In this document: one piece after another, positions 7,045 through 64,000 of the stretch
How the letters are laid out: each line of letters starts with the position of its first letter
Position numbering within the stretch: position 1 is the stretch's first letter
IMG/VR virus record: IMGVR_UViG_3300018432_000001
Coordinates: 78,478 to 142,477 of that record
From: a virus
Length of the DNA stretch: 64,000 nt
Strand: one strand, 5' to 3'
Notes under the pieces: model-generated
The model's input: only the letters and a program-made list of their open reading frames with translations
Database searches by the model: none
What the model was told of the DNA's origin: nothing
Program-made: the position numbers and the translations under genes

Positions 7045-7047
7045 TTG

Positions 7048-7121
7048 TCGCGGGGAGCGGATTTGAACCGCCGACCTTCAGGTTATGAGCCTGTTGAGCT
7101 ACCGAACTGCTCCACCCCGCT
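7048..7121 (-). tRNA. tRNA-Met (CAT), initiator-like
   Basis: On the minus strand the 74 bases fold as a complete cloverleaf: D-arm GAGC/GCTC, anticodon loop CTCATAA, T-loop TTCAAAT, discriminator A. Positions 1 and 72 are A and G and cannot pair; an unpaired 1:72 is the hallmark of bacterial initiator tRNA. A11:U24 is also present. The three G:C pairs normally found at 29-31/39-41 are reduced to two, as 29:41 is A:U. The 3' CCA is not encoded. The gene is isolated inside the late region and opposite to it. Confidence 0.85.
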
Positions 7122-18672: not shown

Positions 18673-19153
18673 CAGATCCCCAATCGTTCTCCCTGGCGTT
18701 GACACGCTCACAAGCTTCACCGTAGTAGTACTCGGCGTAGGGATCTCCCGCGAGACCGCGCTTGAACGTTTCCGCGATGATGTCGGCAGCCGGGCGCTTC
18801 TCCACCTGCGACTTCTTACCGATGGTCTCGATGACCCACACAGGCCACCGGTGGCTGACGCTCGAACGTTCCAGCTGAGGGTGACCGTGGTGTGCACGCA
18901 CGCTGTCAAGCATGCCGATGATCTCAGCGGCAGTGTTCTTAGCAGCGTTTTCTGACGTTTGTCCGTTCGTGCGTGCACGCGTGCGTGCACTACTGGACGA
19001 ACCGGACTTCTTATCCCTCTTCAGCTGCTCGCTTGCCTGCGGTTCCTCGGTTCGAACCTCGACAGTTGGGGGTTCGGCGCTGTCGGTCGGTTCCGACATG
19101 GGGGGGATCTGCGGGGGAGGGGGGGCCGGGACGTTCATGTTGTCACGCGCCAT
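18653..19153 (-). CDS. Partition operon protein of unknown function
   Basis: Its ATG overlaps the ParA stop, giving 166 residues. It has a proline-rich N-terminus (VPAPPPPQIPPM), a low-complexity serine/arginine stretch, then a helical domain with NAAKNTAAEIIGMLDSVRAH and an acidic C-terminus. Sandwiched between ParA and a ribbon-helix-helix protein, it may be an adaptor or a second DNA-binding partner. No family is recognised. Confidence 0.6.
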   Translation of the reverse strand: MARDNMNVPAPPPPQIPPMSEPTDSAEPPTVEVRTEEPQASEQLKRDKKSGSSSSARTRARTNGQTSENAAKNTAAEIIGMLDSVRAHHGHPQLERSSVSHRWPVWVIETIGKKSQVEKRPAADIIAETFKRGLAGDPYAEYYYGEACERVNARENDWGSGEENDD

Positions 19154-20018
19154 TGGGGCTTTCCTCCTGCTCTTCCATGCCACGGGAGATGACCACGTCA
19201 GTCAGCGCGTCGATGGACTCGATGACACCTTCGCGCTCGGACGGACGGAATGAGGTGATCGGCAGGCTCTCCGATTGGGTCTCGGCCAGTCTGGCGCGGA
19301 AGGGGATGACGTGGGGGAGTACCGGCACGGGTGCGCCCTGGTCGATCGCCTTGAATGAGATGGGCATCTCTTCGATGTACCGGTTGTGGAGCTTCAGGCG
19401 GATGTCCGCCTTGTTGATGATGACCCCGCCGAACTTCAGGTTCGGCACCATCAGGTGCTGACGGAAGTTGGAGACGAAGGTGGCCATGCGCAGGCCCCCC
19501 TTGATCTCGTTCCGTTCGGGGATGACGGTGATCCAGACGCGGTCCTCCTCGCCGTCGAGCGCGGCGATGCAGTTCTGCACGAGGTGTCCCAGGCTCGGGT
19601 CGGCGTTCAGCAGGACGTGGTCGTACATGTCGGCGGGAAGGGCGTCGAGGGCGCGGCGCAGACGGAACTGGGCACCGGCCTTGTCGGTTTCGTGAAGCCG
19701 GTCTTCGAGCATGTAGCCACCCTGGGCGACGTGGATGTAAGAGGCTTCGGGGACATCCCATCCGCAAGCGGTGATGGCGTCGGTGATGGGGCGCGGGTTG
19801 TGGTGGTCGAGCACTTCGGCCATGGTCAGGCGCGTGGGGTCTCCGGCGTCGAAGCGGTCGGCGGTGTCGTCCTGCGGGTCGACCTCGACGACGAGCACGC
19901 GCTTGTTGCGTCGGGCGAGGGCGTGTGCGATCTGGACGACGCCGAACGTCTTGCCCGAGCCGCCCTTGCCGTTGAGGAAGGCATCCCGAGGGGGGCGCAC
20001 AAAGAGGTTAGAGGACAT
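19143..20018 (-). CDS. parA: ParA family partition ATPase
   Basis: The 291-residue product carries the deviant Walker A motif NGKGGSGKTFG at about residues 17-27. A VLVVEVDPQDD Walker A'-type aspartate segment follows, then a VLLNADPSLG Walker B strand near 140 and a GGVIINKADIR strand near 215. ParA ATPases move DNA cargo over the nucleoid so that low-copy replicons are inherited. GGAAAGG lies before the ATG. Downstream genes overlap it. Partition genes suggest a plasmid-like stage, although no integrase or lysogeny module is visible in this window. Confidence 0.85.
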   Translation of the reverse strand: MSSNLFVRPPRDAFLNGKGGSGKTFGVVQIAHALARRNKRVLVVEVDPQDDTADRFDAGDPTRLTMAEVLDHHNPRPITDAITACGWDVPEASYIHVAQGGYMLEDRLHETDKAGAQFRLRRALDALPADMYDHVLLNADPSLGHLVQNCIAALDGEEDRVWITVIPERNEIKGGLRMATFVSNFRQHLMVPNLKFGGVIINKADIRLKLHNRYIEEMPISFKAIDQGAPVPVLPHVIPFRARLAETQSESLPITSFRPSEREGVIESIDALTDVVISRGMEEQEESPNGA

Positions 20019-35469: not shown

Positions 35470-36723
35470 TTAGGCGTTGAACGTGCGCACCATGCCCATG
35501 TAGTCACCGAACGCACGGTCGATCTGCTGGTCGTCGATGCCGTAGCGGGCGTGCCCGTATTCGTGTCGGCGTCCCTTGCCGTCCCTGGGGCGCTCCAAGG
35601 CCGTGTTCAACCGGTCGGCCTCGGCGTCGTCCCATTCGAGCCCGAGCCGCCGGTACAGCGCGGCCACCTCCTCGTGCGGGTCGGCCATGAGGCGGGCGTA
35701 GGGCAGATCGACGAACGCCGCCGCCCCGTGCTTCGCCCGGGGCCGCTCGCCGCCGGTCAGCGCCGCGCGGTCGTTGCGCGCCTTCTCGATACCGTACGAC
35801 AGCACCTGCAGCCACGACTGGCCGATGTCGCGGGGCTGAACCTTGTGGGCGAACATGTGGAGGTGGTGCAGACTCTCGGCCATCGAACACATCGACCCGA
35901 ACACGGTCACCGGGTCCCGGTGAGTCCACACCACCTGCGCATCCGGGAAGACCTCGAAGATCTCCGGGAGATGGTAGAGGTTGCCGGGGTGCTTGAGCAC
36001 CCACCGCCGCTGCGGCTGACCGTACGAGAGCACCTGCAGCGCCTGCTTGACGAACCGCCAGTCCGCTCCGGCGTCGTAGTCGCCGGTGAGGTAGCGCCAA
36101 TAGCCCGGCATCGGCGCCGTCCCCAGGTCCATGATCGAGTGGTCGAGGAGGAACGCGTTCTCCTCCACCGCCAGGGGGTCGTCGATGCGGTGGATGAGGT
36201 CCCAGTCGGGCGAGAACTTCAGATGGGCCCGCAGGGTGCGCCGCACCCGCCGCTGCACCTTCGCCTCCTCCGCGCGCGTGCGCGAGCCCGGCACCGCCAT
36301 GTCGAACATCTCCCACAGCTCTGGCCCCCGGCAGCCCTTCGCCCAGGACAGGACGTTGTGCGACAGCGTCGTCCCCGTGCGCGGCAGCCCCACGACGATG
36401 ATCGGCGCCTGGACGAGCACATCGACGAGCTCGGGATGGGCGGCGTGGAGCTTGGCCACGCGCTTGCGGTTGCCCATCCGGTGGGCGGTGGTCTCCAGTG
36501 CGATCCGCCAGCCCAGCCCAGACAGGCCGTCGGTGGCGGCGTAGGCCCGCAGACGCCGCCGGTAGCCCTCGGCCACCGGTTCCTCCAGGAAGGCGAAGCC
36601 GTCCATCTCCCGGCGCATCTTCGTGTACATGCGCTCGAAGGCGCGGTCGGGGTCGCTGCGTTGGAGCAGGAGGGGGGCGGTGGCGATCTGGCCTGCATAG
36701 AGCAGGGCAGAGGTGCGTTGCAT
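35470..36723 (-). CDS. PAPS-dependent sulfotransferase
   Basis: The start at 36723 lies behind AGGAGAC, giving 417 residues. It carries the sulfotransferase 5'-phosphosulfate-binding motif in VVGLPRTGTT near residue 108 and the 3'-phosphate-binding region HRDPVTVFGS near 268. Conserved HPELVDVLVQAPIIV precedes the first, and a WVLKHPGNLYHLPEI segment sits near 240. Family members move sulfate from PAPS to hydroxyl or amino groups on lipids, sugars or small molecules in the cytoplasm. PAPS would come from the host. It has no signal peptide. The substrate is unknown. This is an uncommon phage gene and may be host-derived. Confidence 0.85.
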   Translation of the reverse strand: MQRTSALLYAGQIATAPLLLQRSDPDRAFERMYTKMRREMDGFAFLEEPVAEGYRRRLRAYAATDGLSGLGWRIALETTAHRMGNRKRVAKLHAAHPELVDVLVQAPIIVVGLPRTGTTLSHNVLSWAKGCRGPELWEMFDMAVPGSRTRAEEAKVQRRVRRTLRAHLKFSPDWDLIHRIDDPLAVEENAFLLDHSIMDLGTAPMPGYWRYLTGDYDAGADWRFVKQALQVLSYGQPQRRWVLKHPGNLYHLPEIFEVFPDAQVVWTHRDPVTVFGSMCSMAESLHHLHMFAHKVQPRDIGQSWLQVLSYGIEKARNDRAALTGGERPRAKHGAAAFVDLPYARLMADPHEEVAALYRRLGLEWDDAEADRLNTALERPRDGKGRRHEYGHARYGIDDQQIDRAFGDYMGMVRTFNA

Positions 36724-36782
36724 CAAGGGGGTCTCCTTCGGGTGATAGGCCGGGGAAGCGGCCGGTGAGGTGGGGAAATGAC

Positions 36783-36810
36783 AGTGGCCGGAGGTCCCCC
36801 TCCGGCCACT
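36783..36810. terminator. Terminator hairpin upstream of the sulfotransferase
   Basis: AGTGGCCGGAGG and CCTCCGGCCACT form a perfect 12-bp stem around TCCC. It separates the sulfotransferase unit from the gene at 36880, so the sulfotransferase probably has its own promoter. Confidence 0.65.
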
Positions 36811-36879
36811 TATCCCCATCTGACACCAGGTCAGATCCTTCCTCCTTGCGGACTCAGCGTAGCAGAGCGCGTGGAGTGT

Positions 36880-40116: not shown

Positions 40117-41325
40117 TCAGGCGGCTTGGGCGATGTGGGTGTGAGCGGTGGCTTTGAGTTTGGCGATGCGGTGGGAGTTGATGCCTTCGAGGTGGGGGAG
40201 GACGCGCTGCCAGGTGGCGATGGCGTCGGTGAGTCGTCCTTGGTCGTATTGGGCTTGGGCGACGCGGGCGAGGGTGATGGCCCAGATGCGGGGGTTGGTG
40301 TCGCGGTTCCACAGTTCGAGGCCGTCGCGTGCTTTTTCTTCGGCTCCGGCGTGGTCGCCGAGGGCTTTGAGGGTGACGCCGATCTGGTTGTGGACGCGGG
40401 CGAGGAGGGGTCCTCCGGCGGGCCCGTTGGGGGCGGCCCAGCGGGGTGGGGTGTCGGGGGTGCGGTTGATGTGTTGTTCGGTGATGGTGATGGCGGTTTG
40501 GGCTTGGCGGTGGTTGCCTGCGGCGGCGTGGGCTCGGGCGGCGGTGATGGTGAAGAGGGCTTCGGTGTAGGGGTCGACGCGGCCTTTAGCGAGTCGGCAG
40601 GCTTCTTCGGCGAGGTCGATGTGTTCGGCGCCGTGGCCGAGGGCGAAGGCTTGGTGGCATTTGATGCGCATGACCCAGGCGGTGTGGGCGTGTGGGTCGG
40701 CGATGCGGGCGAGGTTGAGGGCGTTGTCGAAGTAGTGCTGGGCGGCGCCGTCGCGGCCGACGTCGTGGGATTTCCATCCGGCGAGGTAGACGGCTTCGGC
40801 GGCGGCGCCGAACATGTTGCGGCGGATGGTGTCGTTGGTGAAGGTGCCTTCCAGGAGTGGGGGGAGTTCGGTGGCGCAGAATTCGGCGACGGTGCTGCGG
40901 CCGAAGTTGCCGCCGAAGCGTTCGTCGAGGTCGGCGAGGGAGGTGACCCATTGGCGGACGCTGTCGACGTCGGTGGTGCCGACGTGGAGGTGTTTGGCGA
41001 TGGGGGTGGTGGCGGCGGGGATGGTGATTCCGGCGGCGATGTAGGCGGCGTTTCTGAAGAAGCCTCGGCGGTCCACGTCAGACCTTCCTAGTGTGGCGAG
41101 TAGGGCTACGGGGTCGCCTGTGGTGTCAAGCGTGATGAGGGTTTCGGCGACGCTCTCATATTTCTCTATCAGGCCTGGGGGCGGTGGGGTGCGGCCGGTC
41201 TCGTAGTAGGAGAGGGCGACGTGGCTGTAGGGGGCGTCGCGTTTGGCCAGCTCGTTGGCCATGGCGCGGAGGCTGAGTTGGGCCGACGCGCGGATACGAC
41301 GAAGGATGGCGGGGGAATCTTCCAT
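40117..41325 (-). CDS. XRE-family regulator with TPR body
   Basis: This 402-residue protein has an N-terminal helix-turn-helix (ILRRIRASAQLSLRAMANEL, HVALSYYETGRTPPPPGLIE). It then shows the DRRGFFRNAAYIAAG segment seen in Streptomyces regulators, followed by repeated 34-residue-type helical pairs (AEAVYLAGWKSHDVGRDGAA, LARVHNQIGVTLKALGDHAG). This architecture is shared with peptide-sensing RRNPP regulators such as AimR, and with many Streptomyces regulators of unknown ligand. It probably controls a phage decision gene. AAGGTG lies before the ATG. A divergent gene at 41541 may be its target. Confidence 0.75.
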   Translation of the reverse strand: MEDSPAILRRIRASAQLSLRAMANELAKRDAPYSHVALSYYETGRTPPPPGLIEKYESVAETLITLDTTGDPVALLATLGRSDVDRRGFFRNAAYIAAGITIPAATTPIAKHLHVGTTDVDSVRQWVTSLADLDERFGGNFGRSTVAEFCATELPPLLEGTFTNDTIRRNMFGAAAEAVYLAGWKSHDVGRDGAAQHYFDNALNLARIADPHAHTAWVMRIKCHQAFALGHGAEHIDLAEEACRLAKGRVDPYTEALFTITAARAHAAAGNHRQAQTAITITEQHINRTPDTPPRWAAPNGPAGGPLLARVHNQIGVTLKALGDHAGAEEKARDGLELWNRDTNPRIWAITLARVAQAQYDQGRLTDAIATWQRVLPHLEGINSHRIAKLKATAHTHIAQAA

Positions 41326-46398: not shown

Positions 46399-46401
46399 AC
46401 G

Positions 46402-46475
46402 TCGGGCTGACAGGATTCGAACCTGCGACCCCCCGCTCCCAAAGCGGGTGCGCTACCAAACTGCGCCACAGCCCG
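46402..46475 (-). tRNA. tRNA-Pro (TGG)
   Basis: The minus-strand cloverleaf has acceptor CGGGCTG/CAGCCCG, anticodon stem CCCGC/GCGGG with loop TTTGGGA, T-loop TTCGAAT and discriminator A. It is the last of six clustered tRNA genes. Confidence 0.9.
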
Positions 46476-46516
46476 GAAGGCGCCAGCGTGCGGGCGCTGG
46501 CGCCGGTCCCTGCGAG

Positions 46517-46587
46517 AGCCCTCGCGGGGAATCGAACTCCGGTCGCTCGCTTACGAGGCGAGTGCTCTGCCACTGAGCTACAAGGGC
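46517..46587 (-). tRNA. tRNA-Thr (CGT)
   Basis: Acceptor GCCCTTG/CGAGGGC, D-arm AGCTC, anticodon stem CTCGC/GCGAG with loop CTCGTAA, and T-loop TTCGATT complete the fold. It reads ACG, a codon common in GC-rich genes. Confidence 0.9.
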
Positions 46588-46588
46588 G

Positions 46589-46661
46589 AGCGGCAACCGG
46601 GGATCGAACCCGAGACCTTCTGGTTGGAAGCCAGACGCTCTACCAGCTGAGCTACTGCCGC
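46589..46661 (-). tRNA. tRNA-Gly (TCC)
   Basis: Acceptor GCGGCAG/TTGCCGC, anticodon stem TCTGG/CCAGA with loop CTTCCAA, and T-loop TTCGATC fold normally. One base separates it from tRNA-Thr, so processing is from a common precursor. Confidence 0.9.
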
Positions 46662-46662
46662 G

Positions 46663-46735
46663 TGCCCAAGGCAGGATTCGAACCTGCAACCTTCCGGTCC
46701 GGAACCGGATGCTCTGTCCGTTGAGCTACCTGGGC
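46663..46735 (-). tRNA. tRNA-Arg (CCG)
   Basis: Acceptor GCCCAGG/CTTGGGC, anticodon stem TCCGG/CCGGA with loop TTCCGGA, and T-loop TTCGAAT fold normally; discriminator A. It reads CGG. Confidence 0.9.
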
Positions 46736-46838
46736 ATTGTGTACAGCAGTTCCGGCTGCTGCACTGCTTCCCTTTCACGCCCTACCGCCGGAGCAGCTTT
46801 GCGGCAGTACCGCTGTGCGAGCCCAAGGAGCCGGGCCG

Positions 46839-46912
46839 TACCCAGGGTGGGACTTGAACCCACACTGTGCGGTGTTTGAAGCCGCTGCCTCTGCCGATTG
46901 GGCTACCCGGGC
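46839..46912 (-). tRNA. tRNA-Leu (CAA), short variable loop, ambiguous anticodon register
   Basis: Acceptor GCCCGGG/CCTGGGT (with G:U at 1:72), T-loop TTCAAGT and a five-base variable loop are clear. The anticodon stem GCGGC/ACCGC has a C31-A39 mismatch; the seven-base loop TTCAAAC puts CAA in the anticodon position. A one-base shift would give CTTCAAA with TCA (opal). Phage leucine tRNAs with short variable loops are known, so Leu is preferred. Confidence 0.7.
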
Positions 46913-46958
46913 GTGTTCCTCTACTGTCACCGTCACCCTACGCGATGCGGCGGTGGTG

Positions 46959-47030
46959 TGCTCAGGGAGGGATTTGAACCCCCAACCCTCGGTATGTGAC
47001 ACCGATGCGCTGCCATTGCGCCACCCGAGC
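46959..47030 (-). tRNA. tRNA-Val (CAC)
   Basis: Acceptor GCTCGGG/CCTGAGC, anticodon stem TCGGT/ACCGA with loop GTCACAT, and T-loop TTCAAAT fold normally; discriminator A. It is first in the minus-strand tRNA cluster and reads GTG. Confidence 0.85.
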
Positions 47031-56674: not shown

Positions 56675-56705
56675 CGTTGCTCCCTAATGGTCGGTGATGG
56701 GGGAA

Positions 56706-56738
56706 CGGCTCCGGACGCCGTGGCGGCGTCCGGAGCCG
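56706..56738 (-). terminator. Terminator closing the GAF/DUF742/LC7 operon
   Basis: CGGCTCCGGACGCCG and its complement form a perfect 15-bp stem with a TGG loop, after the stop of the GAF gene. Confidence 0.7.
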
Positions 56739-56764
56739 TGGTCGAATCGGTGGGGTGGGTAGGG

Positions 56765-57340
56765 TCAGCCGGTGAGACCGGCGCGTTCGGCGACGCGGGC
56801 CTCGACCTTGCGCGCCCAGCCCTTGATCCATTCGAGGTGGGGCTGCTTCCATTCGTGCTCGACGTCGCTGATGACCCACACGGTCAGGACGACGTCGCCG
56901 TTAGGGGCGCAGACCTCCTCGCCGAGGTAGGAGCGGACGCCGAACTCGATGGCGACGATGTTCGTGGAGTAGCGGGGGTGGTCGTTCGTGTTGATCGCCA
57001 GCGGGCGCCGCCGCTCGGTCACCACGATGCCGCAGTAGCCCATCTTGCCGGTCATGGTCCGGTCGGCTTCGGTGATCGGGCCGAGGTCGGCTCGCTTGTC
57101 CAGGCCGATGAAGTACTGCTCGCAGCCCGGCATCACAAGGTTCACGCCGACCTCCATGGCATGGCCCTCACCCATCATGGCGTCGAACTCGGCGAGCATC
57201 TGCTCGGCGATCGCGTCGTACTCGGCGTCGGGTTCGGGTCGCAACCCGAGCTGGGTCTGCAGCGCGGCGCGTTCAGCGCCGTGCGGGTCCTCGGGGGCCA
57301 TCGAACGGAACTCGCCCTTGGATCGTTTCGGGTCGGTCAT
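56765..57340 (-). CDS. GAF domain protein of a conservon-like cassette
   Basis: AGGAGC precedes the ATG; 191 residues. The C-terminal two thirds match a GAF domain: GVNLVMPGCEQYFIGLDKRA, MGYCGIVVTERRRPLAINTN, DHPRYSTNIVAIEFGVRSYL and a final VVLTVWVIS strand. GAF domains sense small ligands or partner proteins. The next two genes upstream encode DUF742 and roadblock/LC7 proteins, the companions found in actinobacterial conservons. This gene ends the operon. The ligand is unknown. Confidence 0.72.
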   Translation of the reverse strand: MTDPKRSKGEFRSMAPEDPHGAERAALQTQLGLRPEPDAEYDAIAEQMLAEFDAMMGEGHAMEVGVNLVMPGCEQYFIGLDKRADLGPITEADRTMTGKMGYCGIVVTERRRPLAINTNDHPRYSTNIVAIEFGVRSYLGEEVCAPNGDVVLTVWVISDVEHEWKQPHLEWIKGWARKVEARVAERAGLTG

Positions 57341-57377
57341 GATGCGCTCCTAAACAGGGTGGGTGGGGTGTGTGGGG

Positions 57378-57752
57378 TCAGAGGCGGCGATGGAGCCCCG
57401 CGAGCAGGGCCTTCAGCATCTGCACGTCGGCGGGATCGGCCAGCTGCGGCGAACGCGCTTGTACCGCACCGGCTTTGATGAGATCGGACACCAGTACTTT
57501 AACAACTGATCGGGGCAGGTGCAGGTGAGCTGACACCTCCGCGACCGACATCGGCTCGCTGCGGCACAGCAGCAGCACCTGGCTGTGCTCCCCGCCCAGC
57601 TCGCCGACGCCGTCGGCGAACCGTGCCCCCTCAATCGCGGCGACCAGTGTGGTGATGTCGAGCTTCACGCTCGCCCTGGTGCGCCCCCCGGTAGCGGTGT
57701 AAGGGCGCCCCAGGGGGCTGTCGCGGACCGGCTCGTCATGGTCGGCGCTCAT
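57378..57752 (-). CDS. DUF742 protein (conservon CvnC-like)
   Basis: GAGG lies before the ATG at 57752; 124 residues. The family pattern is clear: LGRPYTATGGRTRASVKLDI, LGGEHSQVLLLCRSEPMSVA, EVSAHLHLPRSVVKVLVSDL and a final LKALLAGLHRRL. In Streptomyces conservons CvnC works with CvnB and the G protein CvnD downstream of a sensor kinase. No GTPase or kinase gene is present here, so the phage protein would have to act on host partners or on the adjacent phage proteins. Confidence 0.8.
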   Translation of the reverse strand: MSADHDEPVRDSPLGRPYTATGGRTRASVKLDITTLVAAIEGARFADGVGELGGEHSQVLLLCRSEPMSVAEVSAHLHLPRSVVKVLVSDLIKAGAVQARSPQLADPADVQMLKALLAGLHRRL

Positions 57753-57759
57753 GGCGTCC

Positions 57760-58209
57760 TCACCGCGCGGCGGGACGCTCAGGGGTGGGAAGGAAGGACC
57801 GGACGCTGGCGACGAACTTCTGCGTCTCGAACCCCACCAGCGCGGCATCGGCCTCGCGGGTGGTGACCACGGCCAGGACGGTGCCCAGACCGGCCGAGGA
57901 GATGAACAGCAGCATGTCGTCCAGCTCGACCAGCACTTGGCGGACGGTGGTGGACGCGGGCACCACGGGCGCTTCGCTGTCCGTAGCTGCCACGATGGCG
58001 GCGCTGCGCGCCAGGGAGAACAGGCCCGAGGCGGTGGCGGCGAGCTGGGCAGCCTGCTCGGTGCCCAGGCCGACAGCGCACCGGGTGATGCCGTCCGAGG
58101 ACAGCAGCATCGCGCCGTGGGAGTGGCGGATGTCGGTAAGCATCTGCTGCAGCCGCACGGTCAGGTCGGTGCCGTCGATGAGGGGGACGGTGAAGGAACG
58201 GTCGGACAC
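57760..58209 (-). CDS. Roadblock/LC7 domain protein (conservon CvnB-like)
   Basis: A GTG behind AAGGAG gives 149 residues. The LC7 fold is recognisable by RHSHGAMLLSSDGITRCAVG, LAATASGLFSLARSAAIVAA, VRQVLVELDDMLLFISSAGL and GTVLAVVTTREADAALVGFE. LC7 proteins regulate small GTPases; in conservons CvnB is the GTPase-activating-type partner of CvnD. It lies 7 bases upstream of the DUF742 gene, in the same order as in Streptomyces chromosomes. Confidence 0.82.
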   Translation of the reverse strand: MSDRSFTVPLIDGTDLTVRLQQMLTDIRHSHGAMLLSSDGITRCAVGLGTEQAAQLAATASGLFSLARSAAIVAATDSEAPVVPASTTVRQVLVELDDMLLFISSAGLGTVLAVVTTREADAALVGFETQKFVASVRSFLPTPERPAAR

Positions 58210-58254: not shown

Positions 58255-58608
58255 TCAGGGGGCCGGGGGCAGTTCGTTGCGGTTGAAGCGGGGGACGTGT
58301 GCTTTCTCCAAATCGATCTTGCCCGCCCGCGTACCCCGGACGTATTCGATCAGCTGCCGTTCGATGATTTTGCACTGCTCGGTTTCGAACCGCTTGGCGA
58401 ACACGCGCACCGAAGCCGCAATGCCCTCACGCCAGCGGGCGACAACTTCCAGGGGCTGCCCGGGTTCATCGAGGATGGGGACCACAATGCGCCGGGCCTC
58501 GTTCTTGGCCTCGACCGTGCCGGTGAACCCCACCTGCATCTGCTCGTCGCCGATGCCGATGAGCAGGTCGATCTCCTCGACCGCTCGCCATTCGTCTTCA
58601 GGCTTCAT
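58255..58608 (-). CDS. Hypothetical protein
   Basis: AAGGGAA lies before the ATG; 117 residues. It has beta strands (EIDLLIGIGDEQMQVGFTGT, RRIVVPILDEPGQPLEVVAR) and a long helix (SVRVFAKRFETEQCKIIERQ). It is 45 bases upstream of the LC7 gene and probably co-transcribed. No family is recognised. Confidence 0.6.
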   Translation of the reverse strand: MKPEDEWRAVEEIDLLIGIGDEQMQVGFTGTVEAKNEARRIVVPILDEPGQPLEVVARWREGIAASVRVFAKRFETEQCKIIERQLIEYVRGTRAGKIDLEKAHVPRFNRNELPPAP

Positions 58609-58612
58609 GGGA

Positions 58613-59164
58613 TCAGTTCCCTTCCGGATCGGGCATCAGCAGCAGCGCATCGCGCAGGCGCCGCGCCGCTTCGGCCGGGGAGTGGCCGTCCCATTCGGGC
58701 GGTAGCGGCACCTCAGGAACGGCGAACAGGTTCCAGTCGGCGTTGGCGTAGTGGAAGCTGACCTGCCCGGTCGGCAGCTCGGCGACGACAATGAAGTACT
58801 TGCCGTCAAAGCAGCGCTCGCCGTCGTGATGACGGCGGGACTTGACGACCTTCCAGCCCTTTGCCAGCCACGCGGGCGTCGCGTGCGCGTGCAGCAGCAG
58901 CCGGGATTCGTAGAGCTCTTTGTGGGTGTGGAACCCGTCCGAAGCTTCCCCGGAGGCCAGTTCAGCACGAAGCCGGTGCACCTCGGCGCGGTAGCCGAGC
59001 AGCACCGCCAGCCCGTTCTCGGTGAGTTTCTGCGGAGGTTCGGCGAGATAGTCGGTGCCGCACTCCAGGCAGATCATGTGCGTGGTCTCGCGTGTCCGTC
59101 CCGAGCAGGTCAGACAGGCACTCCCGGCCCCCAGTTGCTGGACTTGGGCACTCTTTTCAGCCAT
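58613..59164 (-). CDS. Zinc-ribbon protein with WDGHSP tail
   Basis: The ATG at 59164 overlaps the previous gene's end; 183 residues. N-terminal CLTCSGRTRETTHMICLECG is a four-cysteine zinc ribbon. The C-terminal part reads FHYANADWNLFAVPEVPLPP, then WDGHSPAEAARRLRDAL, a motif common in Streptomyces and their phages. Function unknown. Confidence 0.6.
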   Translation of the reverse strand: MAEKSAQVQQLGAGSACLTCSGRTRETTHMICLECGTDYLAEPPQKLTENGLAVLLGYRAEVHRLRAELASGEASDGFHTHKELYESRLLLHAHATPAWLAKGWKVVKSRRHHDGERCFDGKYFIVVAELPTGQVSFHYANADWNLFAVPEVPLPPEWDGHSPAEAARRLRDALLLMPDPEGN

Positions 59165-59429
59165 GGCTCTCGCTCCTGTCCTGGTTGAGCCCGAAAGCGC
59201 GGATGCGGCTGTGCGGGCAAGCCGGTTCGGTCTCGAACCAGCCGTGCTCCTGGCAGTATCCATGGTGGTCGAACGTGCACAAGCTGTCCTCGTAGAGGTC
59301 GAGCACCAACGTGCGGAGCCGGTCGATCTCGGCGAGGAGACGCGGGACGCTGTCGTACTCATCGACGCCCCGATAGTCCTCACGGATTGCTTCCAGGTCG
59401 GCGTCGGTGAGCGATTTGGCGGACGTCAT
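59157..59429 (-). CDS. Small helical protein with Cys/His C-terminus
   Basis: The ATG overlaps the previous stop; 90 residues. A helical part (LEAIREDYRGVDEYDSVPRL, LLAEIDRLRTLVLDLYE) is followed by SLCTFDHHGYCQEHGWFETE and ACPHSRIR, which could bind zinc. Confidence 0.55.
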   Translation of the reverse strand: MTSAKSLTDADLEAIREDYRGVDEYDSVPRLLAEIDRLRTLVLDLYEDSLCTFDHHGYCQEHGWFETEPACPHSRIRAFGLNQDRSESHG

Positions 59430-62929: not shown

Positions 62930-63259
62930 TCATTCGTCGCTTTCGTCTGCACGACGTTCCCACAGCTGCCGGTAAGAAGGCTCCTCGTGCCAGCGGCGTG
63001 CGTGCTCGACCATGCGAGGCCCGGTGAGCAACGCGATGACCAGGTTCTCGAACACCATGGCAGCGGTCACAACGACATTGAACAGGCCTGCCACGACCGG
63101 CAGCACGGGCAGTATCGACACCAAGCCGATGAGTACGCAGGCCACGACCGCATAGAAGGTCATGGCGATGATGATTACGGCGCGCTGATGTCCGGGGGAG
63201 GGAGCCGGTACCGGCAGCCCGTGTGGGCCTACCCTCCGGCGCTGGGTTTTATCCTTCAT
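62930..63259 (-). CDS. Membrane protein with two helices
   Basis: The start overlaps the nucleotidyltransferase end; 109 residues. After a basic N-terminus come two hydrophobic helices (AVIIIAMTFYAVVACVLIGL and VVTAAMVFENLVIALLTGPR) and an acidic end. No family is recognised. Confidence 0.6.
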   Translation of the reverse strand: MKDKTQRRRVGPHGLPVPAPSPGHQRAVIIIAMTFYAVVACVLIGLVSILPVLPVVAGLFNVVVTAAMVFENLVIALLTGPRMVEHARRWHEEPSYRQLWERRADESDE

Positions 63260-64000
63260 CGGGATCGCAGTCCTTTCCGTGGGATCTCTCGATTGCCTGC
63301 CAGTGTCGCTGGTGTGCGCTTACCGACCATGCCGAGAGCCGCTCCCAGTCCGGCGCCGGAGCCAACGGCGTCCGACCCCTCTCCATTGCCTGCATCATCC
63401 GCGCCCGCAGCGACCGGATATCCCACAGCACCTGCTCCAGATCCGGCACGCCCCCCGACTTCACCTTCAATACGCACTGCCGTTCCGGCTCCGGCATCGG
63501 CAACGTGAGCCGCCCGTGCTCGGCGATCTCCAGCCCCTGATATCCCAGCCGCAGCGCATGCGAGGCGAACTTCGTGTCGTACCCGTACTTCGCCACCAGC
63601 TCCGGACGTTTCGGCATCGAACCCCGAGGGCCCTTTCCCAGCAGCTTCTGCACCTGGCTGTCGAGGTAATGCGCCGACCGGTCCACGACCTTCCCCGACA
63701 AGAACGCGGGCGCCAGCGCCCGCAGCTCCTCGCCCAGCTCGCTCGTGGCGTACACCGACTTCTCCGGCGCGAACAGCATCGACAGGACCGTGGGGTTCCC
63801 GTCCGTTGCCAGCCGCAGATACTTCCGCAGTGCATACAGCACTCGGTCGGTATCGCCTGGTTGCGAGCGGCGCCCTTCCGCCTGCGTCCGGTACGTGTAG
63901 GTGTCCATGGGTTTCGCCAGGCCGATCACACAGCCAGCAGGTTCGATGAACACCCCCATCTCGTCGTGGTCGTCGGTGCCCGCGATCGCGATGCCGTGCA
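63249..64000 (-). CDS. Nucleotidyltransferase superfamily protein, N-terminus outside the window
   Basis: The frame is open to the window edge. The visible N-terminal part reads LHGIAIAGTDDHDEMGVFIE, then PAGCVIGLAKPMDT. The D-x-D-E metal site and the following strands are those of the DNA polymerase beta-type nucleotidyltransferases common in actinophages. RVLYALRKYLRLATDGNPTV and a LDSQVQKLLGKGPRGS helix follow. The target, RNA ends or a small molecule, is unknown. Confidence 0.75.
   Translation of the reverse strand, partial: HGIAIAGTDDHDEMGVFIEPAGCVIGLAKPMDTYTYRTQAEGRRSQPGDTDRVLYALRKYLRLATDGNPTVLSMLFAPEKSVYATSELGEELRALAPAFLSGKVVDRSAHYLDSQVQKLLGKGPRGSMPKRPELVAKYGYDTKFASHALRLGYQGLEIAEHGRLTLPMPEPERQCVLKVKSGGVPDLEQVLWDIRSLRARMMQAMERGRTPLAPAPDWERLSAWSVSAHQRHWQAIERSHGKDCDPDEG

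Follow-up and report, generated by a model that had tools for sequence, protein, structure and literature searches.

A phage-borne module of CvnB, CvnC and CvnF homologues without the conservon kinase and GTPase

The window analysed here, a stretch of 64,000 nucleotides comprising positions 78478-142477 of a virus record of 142,477 bases (IMG/VR record IMGVR_UViG_3300018432_000001), carries on its minus strand three adjacent genes whose products are almost certainly homologues of the conservon proteins CvnB, CvnC and CvnF. The module and its immediate surroundings are laid out as follows.

58255..58608, minus strand: phage gene 5' of the module, syntenic and 68-81% identical in two relatives
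57760..58209, minus strand: CvnB homologue, roadblock/LC7, 149 aa, GTG start (from Pfam, model and tree)
57378..57752, minus strand: CvnC homologue, DUF742, 124 aa (from Pfam and identity to host CvnC)
56765..57340, minus strand: CvnF homologue, GAF fold, 191 aa (from homology and model)
56705..56739, minus strand: terminator-like hairpin closing the module (from folding energy and recurrence in relatives)

The LC7, DUF742 and GAF genes are real and consecutive, and the predicted gaps of 7 and 37 bases between them were confirmed. The DUF742 gene starts at the ATG at 57752; a longer open reading frame reaching 57848 is merely mechanical. The closing hairpin combines a 16-bp GC stem with a 3-base loop (-36.4 kcal/mol, z -7.4), and counterparts with an altered loop lie 3' of the GAF gene in both relatives. 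The strong terminator described in the original prediction is therefore indeed a strong and recurrent hairpin, but scans for promoters and for T-run terminators found none, and lacking a T-run the element can only be called terminator-like. Same-strand phage genes lie just 45 bases upstream of the proposed operon, so that the transcription unit may exceed three genes. The gene at 58255-58608 matches nothing in Pfam or PHROGs. Just upstream of the module and syntenic in the relatives, window positions 58613-59383 (minus strand) encode a protein with a C-terminal WDGH domain (PF25311, 1.3e-34).

The 142-kb record is a genuine phage: its portal, head-maturation, tail and 1262-aa tape-measure genes were recognised by PHROGs matches. 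The last 123 bases are an exact repeat of the record start, and two related contigs continue uninterrupted across the junction of the record's start and end; for both reasons, the phage genome is probably complete, which matters because the argument developed below depends on two absent genes, cvnA and cvnD. The listed relatives of the portal are phages of actinobacteria, and placing the host by the portal or by a RecD-like helicase leads to probable actinophage at most; the host is probably actinobacterial. The 64-kb window also holds seven tRNA genes.

46401-47030, minus strand: six-tRNA cluster (Pro, Thr, Gly, Arg, Leu, Val)
7047-7121: lone tRNA-Met

Other cargo on the minus strand includes a sulfotransferase family protein (window 35470-36819; PF13469, 3.6e-38; no PHROGs match), which is an odd gene to find in a phage, and, near the end of the record, an RlaP-type nucleotidyltransferase (window 63249-63959; PF10127; phrog_388, 4.2e-43) that is possibly an RNA-repair enzyme.

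Profile searches bore out the first two assignments, with the roadblock protein matching Robl_LC7 (PF03259) at E=3e-10 (40 bits against a cut-off of 23) and the second protein matching DUF742 (PF05331) at E=8.6e-31 (107 bits against a cut-off of 27). An AlphaFold2 model of phage CvnB (pLDDT 82) matches the S. avermitilis roadblock structure 3kye (44% identity) as well as 3leq (S. avermitilis roadblock/LC7; cvnB5) and MglB in MglA-MglB complexes. The loop that joins strands 1 and 2 carries, as D39-G40, an Asp-Gly motif of the kind discussed for MfpD as a GAP (PMC13015309), and this motif is invariant across the alignment of phage and host CvnB proteins. Compared with five plasmid conservons, the phage CvnC shares 35-48% identity with the CvnC proteins of four and 30% with that of the remaining one. 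It also shows a weak Pfam similarity to MarR/IclR helix-turn-helix proteins, and its winged-helix-like domain might act on DNA.

For the third gene, the GAF Pfam profile reached only E=0.015, under its cut-off. By tblastn, relatives of this gene were found on actinobacterial plasmids, adjoining the other conservon matches; at the S. fungicidicus p1 locus, the genes encode an ATP-binding protein (kinase), a roadblock protein, a DUF742 protein, an ATP/GTP-binding protein and a GAF protein, and four more plasmid loci have a similar gene order. The phage protein is 28-34% identical to CvnF of these plasmid conservons. CvnF is an accessory conservon component described for Cvn7 and Cvn8 (PMC8510531). 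We further scanned one genome per species for 84,980 species with a four-row alignment of CvnF relatives, and applied profiles for A, B, C, D and F to the loci of the best 80 cellular relatives. All of these 80 are CvnF genes of Actinomycetota (29-36% identity), and their loci have the order A-B-C-D-F, save where a contig end interrupts the locus. When modelled with AlphaFold2 (pLDDT 86.9), the phage protein matches GAF structures, the best being 4zmu (E=8.9e-9). Because of the CvnF homology and this structural match, the GAF assignment holds despite the sub-threshold Pfam score. The gene encodes a single GAF-domain protein and conforms to the pattern of the accessory cvnF, a GAF gene downstream of cvnB-C-D; the original prediction thus had the fold right but overlooked the identity of the gene as a known conservon component.

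The CvnB-CvnC order noted at the outset is that of conservons, and the host A-B-C-D-F loci extend the correspondence to B-C-F. Relative to these loci, cvnA, normally 5' of cvnB, and cvnD, normally between cvnC and cvnF, are absent from the phage. The A and D profiles matched nothing in the window or the rest of the record, whereas those for B, C and F found their genes, and a CvnD alignment search of the whole record was likewise negative. HATPase_c had no match in the phage genome or in its two relatives, with positive controls in 14 of 14 genomes, and PF03029 had none in the two relatives. The early statement that neither kinase nor GTPase is present therefore applies to the whole phage, in which no HATPase, no CvnA and no CvnD was found.

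In a CvnB tree, the phage proteins group with CvnF-type conservons (95/100), away from the remaining conservons of one Streptomyces and one Glycomyces. The grouping is less clear from CvnC by itself, but concatenated CvnB, CvnC and CvnF place the phage trio with CvnF-type conservons at 96/98. We also added Cvn8-like loci, recognised as in the published Cvn8 by an upstream glycosyl hydrolase (GH15), a CvnA of ~505 aa and a CvnC of ~136 aa. These form a clade of their own (99/94), and the phage falls on the opposite side (97/97), which is presumably Cvn7-like. The phage stem is long, at 1.8-2.4 changes per column, and the trees therefore fail to settle the donor lineage: the concatenated tree points to Nocardiopsidaceae/Actinoallomurus (65/69), the tree with Cvn8-like loci to Glycomyces (96/90).

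Two other viral contigs, of 138 and 141 kb, carry the same trio between the same neighbours, with 74-97% protein identity. For each of the three genes, dN was below dS in every phage pair by both methods, indicating that the module is under purifying selection in the three phages. The trio occurs in no further record among 2.9 million viral contigs and 50,697 annotated phages, within the limits of pattern and tblastn sensitivity. In IMG/VR, only the two related contigs were found besides this record, and no CvnD; INPHARED yielded no relatives of CvnB, CvnC or CvnD with phage or host queries, and none of CvnF with the phage query only. We found no report of phage-borne conservon parts in the open-access literature.

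Of the columns with a conservation of 95% or more among host proteins, CvnC, the best kept of the three, retains 33 of 43, CvnB 39 of 60 and CvnF 34 of 66. Helices 1 and 3 are where the losses in CvnB concentrate (Fisher p=0.006, in a test picked post hoc that ignores phylogeny), and what is retained, the sheet together with the Asp-Gly loop and a large part of helix 2, corresponds to the GTPase/dimer side in MglB and MfpD. In CvnF, losses cluster in the segment expected to cap the GAF ligand pocket (p=0.02, again chosen post hoc and with phylogeny ignored). As an alignment pattern, this uneven loss in the two proteins is suggestive only.

Three known systems help to interpret the module. CvnF-type conservons such as Cvn7 and Cvn8 of S. 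coelicolor encode homologues of all three phage proteins, likewise in the order CvnB, CvnC, CvnF, and the trees group the phage genes with them; the phage set differs in being carried by a phage, in lacking CvnA and CvnD, and in the divergence of the CvnF cap and CvnB helices 1 and 3. In the mycobacterial Mfp conservon (MfpE-D-C-B-A), MfpD and MfpC are the counterparts of CvnB and CvnC, and the structure 9hef of Rv3364c was matched by profile; unlike the phage module, Mfp includes both enzymes, kinase and GTPase, and its last component is the pentapeptide protein MfpA rather than CvnF. The MglA-MglB polarity switch of Thermus and Myxococcus likewise uses a roadblock dimer as GAP on a Ras-like GTPase, but it has no CvnC or CvnF, its GTPase comes from the same organism, and phage CvnB is only 12-14% identical to MglB. 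For the CvnD homologue of the Mfp system, MfpD is a GAP and MfpC the likely GEF (PMC13015309, PMC13343842); CvnF8 binds the kinase CvnA8 and stimulates its autophosphorylation, an activity known for CvnF8 only (PMC13343842). Given these published roles for the CvnB class, the CvnC class and CvnF8, the phage set reads as regulators of the very two enzymes that it lacks.

We consider it slightly better than an even chance that phage CvnB, CvnC and CvnF work in trans on the conservon of the host. In this scenario, a CvnF-type, Cvn7-like conservon would have been acquired by an ancestor of these actinophages, which kept cvnB, cvnC and cvnF. CvnB, of the GAP class, and CvnC, of the proposed GEF class, would determine whether host CvnD is in its GTP or GDP state, while CvnF would engage host CvnA with an altered ligand input, given the divergence of its pocket cap. 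Overall, the pathway would be kept in whatever condition favours the phage, perhaps with the mycelium staying vegetative or with antiviral or antibiotic clusters under control. If the host is Streptomyces-like, conservon partners are likely to be available, as CvnF homologues are present in 109 of 121 sampled Streptomyces genomes. Which host proteins are bound, whether the pathway is blunted or driven, and how the phage benefits are what we infer. The idea that the products act on host partners fares better than decay, because the trio is kept in order, conserved in three phages and under purifying selection, and is strengthened by the third gene as a kinase modulator; a change of host development is plausible by analogy with host conservons, through which actinobacteria regulate development and antibiotic production. 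Against the mechanism counts that, where the literature connects a CvnF system with a lanthipeptide named anti-phage, the system is Cvn8, whereas the phage genes are presumably Cvn7-like. The broader picture, in which a virus hijacks a bacterial Ras-like GTPase pathway with its own GAP, GEF and kinase modulator, minus both enzymes, and so controls development or chemical anti-phage defence, has in our estimate a little less than an even chance.

The same pattern of retained and lost residues could be read differently. The phage proteins might be dominant-negative decoys that bind host CvnA/CvnD or CvnB/CvnC non-productively and break the pathway instead of steering it; the kept sheet and helix 2 side of CvnB, with helices 1 and 3 and the CvnF cap lost, would fit partial retention of contacts. 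However, the Asp-Gly loop, proposed to be important for GAP action, is retained, and three separate genes kept in order exceed what a decoy needs, making this a minority prospect at roughly one chance in a handful.

Somewhat less probable still is a lysogen module, in which the phage persists as a plasmid-like prophage and B-C-F tune host development or metabolism, or inform the lysis-lysogeny decision, as might suit conservon systems that react to the environment. Such a state is hinted at by a ParA/MinD-like ATPase gene (window 19143-20018, minus strand; phrog_164, 1.3e-32; 94% identical in the two of three phages that have it) together with a search for tyrosine integrases that found none. 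A protein with HTH_31 and TPR (window 40117-41325, minus strand; phrog_10886, transcriptional regulator, 3.2e-49) is a possible lysogeny or host regulator. On the other hand, no ParB, repressor or centromere was identified, and the ParA-like gene was not found in the third phage.

The long stem and the loss of about half of the host-invariant residues of CvnF could also mean that the proteins were re-purposed. In the extreme form, they would work without conservon partners, with the CvnC winged helix regulating phage or host promoters and CvnB and CvnF serving as dimer and ligand partners; the weak MarR/IclR similarity and the absence of GTPase and kinase from the phage agree with this. Yet CvnC is the best conserved of the three, and the B-C-F order and joint retention suit a common conservon role, which renders this explanation improbable. 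Finally, a neutral, decaying fragment of a captured conservon would account for the two missing core genes, and GTPase-less partial conservons do occur in cells (PMC4316618), but three divergent phages share open frames, dN below dS, gene order and hairpin, leaving this reading scarcely any credit.

Development in Streptomyces restricts the spread of phages (PMC10117723), and the cluster repressed by Cvn8 encodes a peptide that has been named an anti-phage lanthipeptide (PMC8510531, PMC13343842). For these reasons, a connection of phages with conservons can be tested directly, even though the module is nearer to Cvn7. In S. coelicolor, Cvn8 sits beside the lanthipeptide cluster. A close tie of the phage module to Cvn8 and this lanthipeptide was considered and rejected, as the phage genes fall in the Cvn7-like clade, and Cvn8 serves as an analogy only; a scan of large genes at five Cvn8-like loci found no lanthipeptide synthetase.

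Conservons are common in Streptomyces; a phage set made up of regulators alone would mark the regulatory nodes as targets, and the phage proteins would be natural reagents for locking or releasing a conservon system. As far as the literature that we found goes, no earlier set of viral genes directed at a small-GTPase pathway of bacteria has been described. Separately, a group of Streptomyces loci has a CvnF-like GAF gene that is oriented away from a CvnA homologue and separated from it by large genes, and possibly represents a further conservon variant.
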